A program made the position numbers and the translations under genes. 21,478 nt of DNA from a virus. The notes beneath the pieces were generated by a model. It had not been told where the DNA came from and did no database searches. It saw only the letters and a list, made by a program, of their open reading frames with translations. This document shows, piece after piece, positions 38 through 2,153 of this stretch (positions are counted from its first letter, which is position 1; each line of letters begins with the position of its first letter). The stretch spans positions 1 to 21,478 of IMG/VR virus record IMGVR_UViG_3300020172_001034; one strand, written 5' to 3'.

Positions 38-171
38 AGGTAACGTATGGTGATATAAGAAGTAGCGGATTAATAAAAACTAAACTTTAAATTTATGACA
101 GATTTTACAAATATACCCAAACTTTCAGAAAGCACTGAACCCGCTATTTCTTATAGCACGTGTTATGCCTC
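38..171. repeat. attC-like recombination site 0 (between a preceding cassette and cassette 1)
   Basis: The site runs from TAAC (41-44) to GTTA (162-165). Its arms pair imperfectly: TATAAGAAGTAGCGG (54-68) faces the reverse complement of CCGCTATTTCTTATA (141-155), with one mismatch. Unequal unpaired bases lie between the arms and the ends, as in the extrahelical bases of folded attC strands. The right-hand core GTTATGC (162-168) would be the recombination point, cut after the G. The spacer between the arms contains the ATG of the following gene at 95. Known integron attC sites share this TAAC...GTTA layout; assigning this one is inference, because no integrase is visible here. Confidence 0.65.
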
Positions 172-997
172 GTTTTTATACGTGGTTTTGTTTTCAGGTG
201 GTCGTACTTCCGCATTTTTAGCAAAGTATATGAAAGAGCATCCACATTATAAAAACTGCATTTTTGTTTTTATGAATACTGGAAAAGAACGTGAAGAAAC
301 TTTACAATTTGCCGATAAATGCGATAAAGAATTTGGATTGAATTTGGTTTATCTTGAAGCATTAGTAAACAACGAAAAAGGGAAAGGTACAACTTATACA
401 ATAGTTGATTTTGAAACTGCTTCAAGAAATGGAGAACCATTTGAAGCGATGCTTAAAAAATATCCATTACCTAATAATATGGCTTCAAATTGCACAAGAG
501 AATTAAAACAAAGACCTATTGATGCTTATTTACGTGATAATTATAAAGACTTTGATGTTATTAAAGTAGTAGGGATTAGAGCCGATGAAGCACATCGTAA
601 AAGTGTAAATGCTGAAATTGAAAAAGTAATTTATCCCTTATGTGATGAAGTAAAAATTGATAGCAGATTTATTCGTAATTGGTGGGAAAAGCAAAGGTTT
701 GATTTAGGATTAAAAGACTATCAAGGCAATTGTGATTTATGCTTTAAAAAGTCATTGAAAAAAAGATTGACAATTATAAAAGAAAATCCTGAAAGTGCTA
801 AATGGTGGCTTGAAATGGAGCAAAAATATAGTTCTGAAGAAATACCAAGATTTGATTTAAGAACAAATAAAAGCATTGAGGAATTAGTTGAAATGGCAAA
901 AAGACCATTTACAAAAGCGCAAGATTTGCACGAACTTTCACAACAACAATGCGATTTGTTTGAATTTGAAACCGATTGTTTCTGCAAGGCTTCTTAA
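95..997 (+). CDS. PP-loop / PAPS-reductase-family protein (cassette 1 gene)
   Basis: This 300-aa protein belongs to the adenine nucleotide alpha-hydrolase superfamily. LFSGGRTSAFLAKYM near residue 32 is a variant of the SGGxDS PP-loop that binds the ATP/PAPS phosphates. It is followed by FMNTGKEREET, NCTRELKQRPI, VVGIRADEAHRKS and a CDLCFKK pair that may bind metal or act in redox. Such proteins reduce PAPS to sulfite or activate sulfur for thiolation; standalone copies are common in phages and accessory DNA. The first roughly 27 residues are unlike the family because they are encoded by the attC-like palindrome. The family core begins near the GTG at 182, so the native start may be there. 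A 10-base inverted repeat (162-171 and 1001-1010) flanks the gene as a cassette. The family call is firm; the substrate is unknown. Confidence 0.8.
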   Translation: MTDFTNIPKLSESTEPAISYSTCYASFLYVVLFSGGRTSAFLAKYMKEHPHYKNCIFVFMNTGKEREETLQFADKCDKEFGLNLVYLEALVNNEKGKGTTYTIVDFETASRNGEPFEAMLKKYPLPNNMASNCTRELKQRPIDAYLRDNYKDFDVIKVVGIRADEAHRKSVNAEIEKVIYPLCDEVKIDSRFIRNWWEKQRFDLGLKDYQGNCDLCFKKSLKKRLTIIKENPESAKWWLEMEQKYSSEEIPRFDLRTNKSIEELVEMAKRPFTKAQDLHELSQQQCDLFEFETDCFCKAS

Positions 998-1000
998 AAT

Positions 1001-1138
1001 GAGGCATAACGGTTTGCGTGTATAAGAAGTGGCGGAATTAAAGCACAAAATTAACTTGAAAGCAATGCAGTTGAATATAGCACTAATGTTTCTAAATGGC
1101 ACGAAACCCGCCATTTTTTATACACGCTGTTATATGCT
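1001..1138. repeat. attC-like recombination site 1 (between cassettes 1 and 2)
   Basis: This is the best-formed site. TAAC (1007-1010) begins it and GTTA (1129-1132) ends it. The inner arms are GCGTGTATAAGAAGTGGCGG (1016-1035) and the reverse complement of CCGCCATTTTTTATACACGC (1108-1127), pairing at 18 of 20 positions. The left side carries extra bases (GGTTT against a single base), which gives the bulge asymmetry seen in attC. The left end GAGGCATAAC (1001-1010) is the exact reverse complement of the start of cassette 1 (162-171). The right end GTTATATGCT (1129-1138) instead matches the far end of cassette 2. The spacer of about 70 bases is unpaired. Confidence 0.75.
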
Positions 1139-1175
1139 GTTTTTCTTTCGCAAATTTATAAAAATATGTATATAG
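1065..1175 (+). CDS. Possible 36-aa leader ORF reading through attC-like site 1
   Basis: An ATG in the spacer of the attC-like site opens a 36-codon frame that crosses the right arm and the GTTA core. It ends at TAG 1173-1175, overlapping the first codons of the next gene by 10 bases. The right arm encodes TKPAIFYTRCYML here, close to TEPAISYSTCYA from the same part of site 0, where the frame continues into the cassette gene. It may be a translation-coupling leader or a chance opening; there is no direct evidence of expression. Confidence 0.25.
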   Translation: MQLNIALMFLNGTKPAIFYTRCYMLFFFRKFIKICI

Positions 1176-1585
1176 TAAAATTATCGGCAAAAGATGGTAA
1201 CGAAGATTATCATTTTGTAAATGTTGAAGTAAATTGCAATAATGAAAATACCGCTATCAATAAAGCAGTAGATTATTATTATGATAAATATTGGTCAAAC
1301 ACTGATTGGCGAAAAGAAGAATTTGAAGCAGAAATGATTTCTTTTAAAAATAAAGTAAATCAATTAAACGATTCTACTTTATGTAAGATACTACCAAATA
1401 AAGATATTATAATAAATGAATACGAAAGCTATTTGAGAAGTCATTTAGGAGCATCGGATAAATCGGTGGAAGATTTTTCAAAAATGTCTTTATATTTAAA
1501 ATTACAATATCTTTCAGAAATTGGTTGTGAGTTATCTTATTTTGCATATCCTAGAAAATCAAAATTTGAAAGCGTGTCTATTTAA
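1166..1585 (+). CDS. Hypothetical protein (cassette 2 gene)
   Basis: I do not recognise this 139-aa protein. It begins MYIVKLSAKDGNEDYHFVNV, a plausible beta-strand segment, and continues with charged, helix-prone stretches such as the one around residues 45-65. There is no signal peptide, membrane segment or obvious catalytic motif. The ATG at 1166 follows an AT-rich leader just inside the cassette boundary. GTTATATGCT (1129-1138) lies before the gene and its exact reverse complement AGCATATAAC (1589-1598) lies 3 bases after the stop, so the gene fills the cassette almost completely. Orphan small genes like this are typical of cassette arrays; many prove to be toxins, antitoxins or defence genes, but nothing in the sequence shows which. 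Confidence 0.6.
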   Translation: MYIVKLSAKDGNEDYHFVNVEVNCNNENTAINKAVDYYYDKYWSNTDWRKEEFEAEMISFKNKVNQLNDSTLCKILPNKDIIINEYESYLRSHLGASDKSVEDFSKMSLYLKLQYLSEIGCELSYFAYPRKSKFESVSI

Positions 1586-1588
1586 AAT

Positions 1589-1729
1589 AGCATATAACGC
1601 CACTCGGCTTGCTCGTCGTTGTGGCGAATTGAAAACTAATATTAACAAATAATCCTAAACTTTTAATTATGCCAAATAAAAACAAAAACACAGAAGTGCC
1701 ACAATGCGTGCAAACCGATGTTAGCAGTA
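1589..1729. repeat. attC-like recombination site 2 (between cassettes 2 and 3)
   Basis: TAAC (1595-1598) begins the site and GTTA (1720-1723) ends it. The left arm CGGCTTGCTCGTCGTTGTGGC (1605-1625) pairs with the reverse complement of 1698-1717, sharing CGG, TTGC, CG and TTGTGGC with one bulge. Arm sequences differ completely from sites 0 and 1, yet the architecture is the same; conservation of structure rather than sequence is what is known for attC. A second small hairpin (CGCCAC at 1598-1603, GTGGCG at 1621-1626) lies within the left arm. GTTAGCAGTA (1720-1729) starts cassette 3. The spacer contains the ATG of the next gene at 1669. Confidence 0.65.
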
Positions 1730-1932
1730 GTACATTTATTTCTAATGTACCTAACAAATTTGCGGATTGTGTAAAAAAATACCATAAAGAATTTAACGTA
1801 AAACTAAAAGAGTTTAAAGAATATAAGGGTAATTGGAAAACAGTTCACGTAGTTGGGAAAATGAGTGATTTAATTTTATTAAATGCAAAGTGCGAAAAAG
1901 AAACTTACGGAGATTTAGACGATGTTGATTAG
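1669..1932 (+). CDS. Small hypothetical protein (cassette 3 gene)
   Basis: This unrecognised 87-aa, Lys-rich protein (for example KYHKEFNVKLKEFKEYKGNWK) has an acidic tail, ETYGDLDDVD. The predicted ATG lies inside the spacer of attC-like site 2, so its first roughly 17 residues are encoded by the recombination site and the rest by the cassette. The only later in-frame ATG (1861) would leave 23 residues, so the upstream start is preferred. The bases before this ATG (TAAACTTTTAATTATG) closely match those before the ATG of the first cassette gene (TAAACTTTAAATTTATG), hinting that the attC spacer supplies the translation start. The cassette ends with TACTGCTAAC (1936-1945), the exact complement of its start. 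Confidence 0.5.
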   Translation: MPNKNKNTEVPQCVQTDVSSSTFISNVPNKFADCVKKYHKEFNVKLKEFKEYKGNWKTVHVVGKMSDLILLNAKCEKETYGDLDDVD

Positions 1933-1935
1933 TAT

Positions 1936-1960
1936 TACTGCTAACTACCCGCTAACCGCT
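1936..1960. repeat. Half of attC-like site 3 (left end only)
   Basis: TACTGCTAAC (1936-1945) is the exact reverse complement of the start of cassette 3 (1720-1729), so it is that cassette's left attC end. It is followed by TACCCGCTAACCGCT. The expected partner arm (about AGCGGTTAGCGGG followed by GTTA) is not found in the next several hundred bases. The site therefore seems truncated or interrupted, and the phage-like genes start right after it. Confidence 0.5.
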
Positions 1961-1979
1961 ATAAATGTATTACAATATT

Positions 1980-2153
1980 ATGAAAGTACTAATAAAAACA
2001 AAGGTAATTAGAATTACTGAAATGCAACTTTTAACGCTTCAAAAAATGAAGTCTTATAATGTTGACGTAGGTCATTTTATACGACAAGCAATATCTGAAA
2101 AGATAAAACGAGAGTACAAGGATTTAATACCAAAACAAAAAACACCATTTTAA
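1980..2153 (+). CDS. Ribbon-helix-helix-like small DNA-binding protein
   Basis: With the ATG at 1980 this is a 57-aa protein; an ATG at 1965 would add five residues. The segment KVIRITEMQLLTLQKMKSYN followed by VDVGHFIRQAISEKIKRE fits the ribbon-helix-helix pattern: a short basic strand, a helix, a turn with G/N, then a second helix ending in FIRxAIxEKI. Such proteins are usually small repressors or partners of toxins. It is the first gene after the cassette array and lies 1 base before the next small gene, so it probably belongs to the phage control or early region. The fold call rests on pattern recognition only. Confidence 0.55.
   Translation: MKVLIKTKVIRITEMQLLTLQKMKSYNVDVGHFIRQAISEKIKREYKDLIPKQKTPF

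Follow-up and report, generated by a model that had tools for sequence, protein, structure and literature searches.

Integrons have been regarded as rare in Bacteroidota. According to a passage of its published description, IntegronFinder needs the IntI-specific domain (PMC9668308), and its authors reported one complete integron in Bacteroidetes proper, that of Salinibacter ruber M1 (PMC9024848). In phages, a survey (Qi et al. 2023, PMC9892861) listed 17 clusters of two or more sites devoid of an integrase gene (CALINs). The flavobacterial phages of the genus Lillamyvirus were described as virulent in a paper in which integrons and cassettes go unmentioned (PMC7077304), and our search of the open-access full-text literature found no description of the cassette system presented here.

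The window analysed in this study is the whole IMG/VR virus contig IMGVR_UViG_3300020172_001034 (21,478 bases). Past its first 1.95 kb, profile matches identified an ERF annealing protein and a Dda-like helicase, and terminase, portal and capsid genes were assigned by eye from the open reading frames (ORFs); the window is part of the genome of a Bacteroidota phage, a virus of aquatic bacteria. Searches of the record for Rfam families, tRNA genes and the integron integrase model TIGR02249 gave no match, the last in agreement with a sequence-only reading of the first 2 kb, which had seen an integron-like array with no integrase in view. With good confidence, we interpret this segment as the right-hand end of an orphan integron-type array in a Bacteroidota phage, the cassettes of which would be moved in trans by a recombinase of the host (Table 1). 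The contig opens with a perfect 11-base inverted repeat (ATATTGCGAGA / TCTCGCAATAT, positions 1-33). It directly precedes the closing bases of a fourth cassette, itself out of view, and may be a terminator for the gene of this cassette or an artefact of assembly at the contig end.

Table 1. Features of the cassette array in the window and their basis (E-values of model R1 are rough)
Feature	Position	Strand	Basis
3' end (TTTACAGGTAAC) of an unseen preceding cassette, truncated by the contig start	33..44	+	sequence; TAAC opens site 1
Hairpin site 1 (TAAC...GTTA), 5' part of cassette unit A	41..165	+	model R1, 63 bits, E 3e-12 in 245 kb, full length
Cassette A, GTTATGCCTC ... GAGGCATAAC	162..1010	+	G/T at position 11, 4 further matches
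Cassette A ORF, PAPS-reductase family (phage type)	95..997	+	PF01507 E 5e-8; phrog_424 E 6e-48; first start codon within hairpin 1
Hairpin site 2, 5' part of cassette unit B	1007..1132	+	model R1, 55 bits, E 2e-10
Cassette B, GTTATATGCT ... AGCATATAAC	1129..1598	+	inverted end match
Cassette B ORF, 139 aa	1166..1585	+	family match: none
Hairpin site 3, 5' part of cassette unit C	1595..1723	+	model R1, 63 bits, E 3e-12
Cassette C, GTTAGCAGTA ... TACTGCTAAC, final one in the array	1720..1945	+	inverted end match
Cassette C ORF, 87 aa	1669..1932	+	ORF list; start codon within hairpin 3
Fixed array end (attI-like boundary), TAAC followed by TACCCGCTAACCGCTATAAATGTATTACAATATTATGA	1942..1985	+	kept in relatives with other cassettes
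Conserved small phage gene flanking the array end, outside the array	1980..2153	+	phrog_25647, function unknown

Each of the three cassettes begins with GTTA plus 6 bases and ends with the exact reverse complement of these 10 bases, as claimed from the sequence at 162-171/1001-1010, 1129-1138/1589-1598 and 1720-1729/1936-1945. In dinucleotide shuffles of positions 1-2100, such 10-base end pairs arose by chance with a mean of 0.044, and at least three were present in 1 of 2000 shuffles. The pairs extend to 14-15 positions with a single mismatch, at position 11, where the 5' arm carries G and the 3' arm T in all three cassettes; past it, 3-4 further bases match in each. Pairs combining this G/T with at least 3 of 4 further matches were found in none of the 2000 shuffles. 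Counted rule-free, G/T occupies position 11 in 32 of 34 distinct phage cassette ends and in 88/88 chromosomal ones. As a control, cassette ends of the Vibrio sp. HDW18 chromosomal integron match across 9-12 bases and lack any constant mismatch. We therefore rejected the idea that 10-base end matches are in themselves unusual for integrons: since Vibrio cassette ends also match, such matches are an integron property, which makes the argument of the sequence-only reading sound, and it is the constant G/T, not end matching as such, that sets this lineage apart. The cores of the window (GTTATGC, GTTATAT and GTTAGCA) do not fit the integron consensus GTTRRRY. Single-gene cassettes parted by folded sites number 3 in the window, 12-14 in Lillamyvirus and up to 46 in Flavobacterium, and the three sites within 1.7 kb of an integrase-free record correspond to a CALIN (at least two sites within 4 kb, no integrase gene).

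The palindromes running from TAAC to GTTA between the cassettes were also present, although their true spans (Table 1) lie slightly within the ranges first given, and their unequal bulges separate TAAC/GTTA from the inner stem by 5 unpaired bases on the left side and a single one on the right. A covariance model, R1, was built only from 28 chromosomal sites, aligned under a hand-written structure of 21 pairs. In this alignment 97.8% of cells are paired, and 129 double changes were counted vs 35 in shuffles, a covariation exceeding that of all 500 shuffles. Sites thus keep their structure through compensatory changes while their arms vary, as had been proposed. Fixed departures from pairing include a C.A mismatch, a G.T pair (26/28 sites) and an internal loop of 5 vs 1 bases. 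R1 recovered all three window sites on the correct strand (55-63 bits), as well as sites of other phages, and matched 111 of 296 Bacteroidota genomes (37%) at a rough E-value of 1e-4; the sites are attC-like in structure, again as first suggested. The model found no match in a Vibrio integron, nor in Polaribacter phage P12002L (L096), whose sites therefore lie outside R1, one of them having been used by IntI1 in a published assay; the cassette sites of Bacteroidota phages may belong to two or more families. For each window cassette, the junction of the joined circle folds 7-12 kcal/mol more stably than the array junctions, its two ends closing a stem.

Searched by blastn, the window matched Flavobacterium phages of the genus Lillamyvirus, and nine complete isolate genomes of this genus carry 12-14 consecutive cassettes under the same end rule. 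Direct comparison of these isolates revealed rearrangements. A cassette of 320 bases, x27, sits between one and the same pair of cassettes in lillamy9-1, lillamy9-6 and sniff9-1 and also lies mid-array in morran9-1; in lillamy9-7 it is the last of the array and its former place is closed. Together with its upstream hairpin, x27 is 99% identical at both places, with unchanged flanks and joints falling exactly on TAAC. As the cassette travels with its upstream hairpin, the moving unit consists of a hairpin and the gene that follows it on the right, and the array is to be read from its right end; the classical left-to-right reading, in which a gene moves with its downstream site, was rejected on the same ground. 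The terminal position of x27 in lillamy9-7 further indicates that the array end, TAAC followed by TACAATAT, receives units. Other differences between isolates also fall on cassette boundaries: morran9-1 has one extra cassette, snork6-2 lacks the last one, and hemulen6-1 and stinky9-1 carry a different terminal block. We infer recombination itself from these rearrangements. The methyltransferase cassette GTTAGCCGCAG is absent from lillamy9-1 and morran9-1 and present in hemulen, sniff and snork. Phages plating poorly on strain LMO6 were reported to lack a certain methyltransferase (PMC7077304); if the cassette encodes that enzyme, a tie to the plating phenotype is possible.

Cassettes are likewise shared beyond these isolates. 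Proteins related to the ERF annealing protein were found in 97 viral contigs, 28 of them close. Homology of the phage backbone to four of these relatives (L012-L015) starts at window position 1941/1942, which is the last TAAC: to its right the boundary TAC..CTAAC.GCTATAAATGTATTACAAT is conserved, and to its left each phage has different cassettes. The methyltransferase cassette that ends the array of L012 has an internal position in L027 (92.5% identity, homology from the hairpin onward), a cassette of L027 recurs in an array on the chromosome of Flavobacterium taihuense (L093; 91% for the gene, 83% for the hairpin), and the terminal cassette of L028 corresponds to hemulen cassette Y (77%). 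The expectation that relatives would hold rearranged cassettes was thus borne out, cassettes being reordered between isolates and shared among phages and with one chromosome. The pattern AAAGCACTGAACCCGCYANTT had no match in viral contigs, and a plasmid search gave none. Separately, the end box GTTATAACTCG flanks unrelated genes at L004:4275, L003:5766, L030, L092:360 and L095:3388, with the same hairpin in some and another in others, as if new genes had been set within conserved ends. A chromosomal array at L095:1632-3650 holds two cassettes in chromosomal orientation and a last one with phage-type hairpin and orientation, possibly a phage capture.

No tyrosine recombinase was found in five phage genomes (two Lillamyvirus, the 36,012-base record G007, P12002L and G005). 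By contrast, an insertion site lies beside a recombinase in Flavobacterium, the phages having a fixed array end and no recombinase. Among 30 loci scanned around tyrosine recombinases in four bacterial genomes reached by the hairpin pattern, a good cassette faced the recombinase in three (L101, L102 and L104), the enzyme of L101 and L104 having 347 residues; further examples of this recombinase type with cassettes were found across the phylum. The first cassette starts 93-105 bp after the stop codon of the 347-aa recombinase in 14 of the 20 loci with room for it, and one complete Flavobacterium genome carries an array of 46 cassettes over 34 kb. Draft contigs L139, L142, L143 and L145 run for no more than ~1 kb past the recombinase, as would be expected if assemblies break in cassette arrays. 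Across the 296 Bacteroidota genomes, 70 had both sites and recombinase, 24 the recombinase only, 161 neither, and 41 sites only at a strict recombinase cut-off. The last figure speaks against the recombinase as the mover of these sites, although genomes may be incomplete and many sites may be orphan. Sites and recombinase were associated (odds ratio 11, p 4e-19, uncorrected for shared ancestry).

The 347-aa recombinase comprises Phage_integrase and SAM-like domains and an extra N-terminal module of ~70 residues, in which a possible resemblance to the HARP DNA-annealing domain was seen by eye. Across ten sequences the catalytic residues of the enzyme (Arg, His, Arg, His and Tyr) do not vary. 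Against TIGR02249 it scores 198-218 bits in two stretches (cut-off 265); in 199 Flavobacterium genomes, 88 matched this model at E 1e-30 or better, 347-aa and 585-aa classes mixed, and no protein passed its cut-off. Aligned to Vibrio IntI and IntI1, the recombinase lacks ~42 residues that correspond to the IntI-defining insertion, an absence that would explain why standard integron searches missed the system. Phylogenetically, these recombinases and IntI stand apart from the Xer proteins of Flavobacterium, the long branches being compatible with IntI either as their sister or nested within them. The best structural matches of an AlphaFold2 model (pLDDT 79, pTM 0.49, moderate quality) were IntI and XerA. 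The orphan cluster and the array of a different recombinase, between which the sequence-only reading had hesitated, therefore both hold: the array is orphan in the phage and adjoins an enzyme other than canonical IntI in bacteria. A class of 575-585-aa tyrosine recombinases also occurs in Flavobacterium (L128, L132, L135-L138), with a long N-terminal part that looks like repeats of the module of the 347-aa class; in L138 the ORF that comes after it resembles a reverse transcriptase by eye (YRDD motif). The 585-aa recombinases were set aside as the array enzyme, since no cassettes adjoin them.

Relative to the G/T asymmetry, 68 of the 73 chromosomal cassettes scored near a recombinase have an antisense gene, which is the integron arrangement of a gene followed by its site, and 42/46 phage cassettes have a sense gene, i.e. 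a reversed one. Genes pointing away from attI with the site at their 3' end are accordingly a trait of the chromosomal arrays and not of the phage ones, where the sense orientation places the site at the 5' end of the gene. The longest reading frame starts inside the site in 13/42 phage cassettes, including two of the window's three, and the phage site may supply signals for gene expression. This reversal, the phage nature of the DNA and the constant G/T at position 11 add to what the sequence-only reading had noticed.

These observations are best explained by a mechanism in which each mobile unit combines a hairpin site with the GTTA...TAAC gene segment on its right. Both complementary ends of a cassette would, as in integrons, once have formed part of one site in a circular cassette, a single strand of which would fold into one long hairpin, with an outer stem of 4 + G.T + 10 pairs and, inward of it, the asymmetric 5/1 internal loop and then the inner stem. 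A tyrosine recombinase of Bacteroidota-integron type, supplied by the host since the phage has no gene for one, would recognise this folded strand by its shape and insert the circle at the attI-like array end or at other sites. The cut would fall within the shared GTTA, by analogy between G and TTA. We infer that the 347-aa recombinase is the catalyst, as well as the cut position, the strand used and an action in trans during infection, and the constant G.T would serve as a mark of strand or orientation.

Other mechanisms could be envisaged. Some hosts might have acquired a canonical IntI that moves these cassettes as ordinary attC cassettes, the neighbouring Bacteroidota recombinase being incidental. 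IntI1 did recombine one P12002L attC with attI1 (PMC9892861), and the Vibrio integron, too, has cassette ends matching over 9-12 bases; nevertheless, Vibrio cassettes have no constant G/T at position 11, R1 matches neither Vibrio nor P12002L sites, none of the 199 Flavobacterium genomes encodes a protein above the TIGR02249 cut-off, and the 347-aa recombinase keeps a constant distance to the first cassette, making this explanation unlikely. Slightly less credit is given to homologous recombination between similar hairpins, helped by the phage ERF annealing protein and requiring no site-specific enzyme. It would leave unexplained the cassette-specific complementary ends and the compensatory pair changes, and x27, whose flanks are unchanged and whose breaks lie at the 4-base TAAC, landed at an array end whose junction offers no hairpin partner. 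The phage does encode an ERF annealase and several hairpins are 83-91% alike between genomes, so that this process could be behind some of the shuffling.

In having one end folded into a hairpin and a short, constant tetranucleotide where they join, the cassettes resemble, though no more than that, single-strand transposon-like elements with subterminal hairpins moved by HUH (Y1) transposases of IS200/IS605 or REP type. Such elements seem very improbable here, the ends being complementary and cassette-specific with no family-wide terminal hairpin, and the start of chromosomal arrays lying at a fixed distance from a tyrosine recombinase. Lastly, the position-11 pair would be a G.U wobble in + strand RNA, as if the complementary ends acted in transcription or in the RNA, as terminators or mRNA stems of phage genes inherited together; yet the gene-flanking rule is kept with the opposite gene direction in chromosomal arrays, Rfam gave no match, and the units move and are common to several genomes, rearrangements that already contradict this view and leave it hardly tenable.

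Returning to the host-driven orphan array, our results more broadly suggest, as the probable picture, a widespread integron lineage of Bacteroidota with a tyrosine recombinase free of the IntI domain and differently marked sites, through which lytic phages exchange genes in reversed cassettes, the site giving the 5' end including start codons. A cassette system of integron logic occurs in more than one in three genomes of the phylum-wide sample (the 37% above), with arrays of up to 46 cassettes, linking lytic phages and chromosomes by one cassette pool. Its phage cassettes include methyltransferases and other accessory genes, by which near-identical isolates differ. It also provides a natural test of what the IntI domain does and of how strand choice works with fixed mismatches in the site.

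Compared with known systems, these arrays share with IntI/attC integrons (class 1, Vibrio) the tandem single-gene cassettes, the folded site between them, the cassette-specific complementary ends (GTT.../...AAC), and an insertion end beside a tyrosine recombinase from which chromosomal genes point away. Unlike IntI, the recombinase has no ~42-residue IntI domain and bears ~70 extra N-terminal residues, and its gene points toward the array; unlike attC, the sites combine the constant position-11 G/T, the inner-stem G.T, the C.A mismatch and the 5/1 loop with a core other than GTTRRRY. The integron of Salinibacter ruber M1 belongs to the same phylum, but was found by a method requiring the IntI domain that is absent here (PMC9024848). 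The Flavobacterium recombinases narrowly pass the cut-off of NF040815, 'site-specific tyrosine recombinase/integron integrase' (XerA-like; 222-226 bits vs 220), a family whose name implies no cassette arrays and to which they add the N-terminal module. Finally, the phage arrays resemble the phage CALINs surveyed by Qi et al. (2023, PMC9892861), including that of P12002L, in being integrase-free clusters in lytic phages with many DNA methyltransferase genes, but differ from them in that the isolates hold 12-14 cassettes of one site family, with rearrangement.
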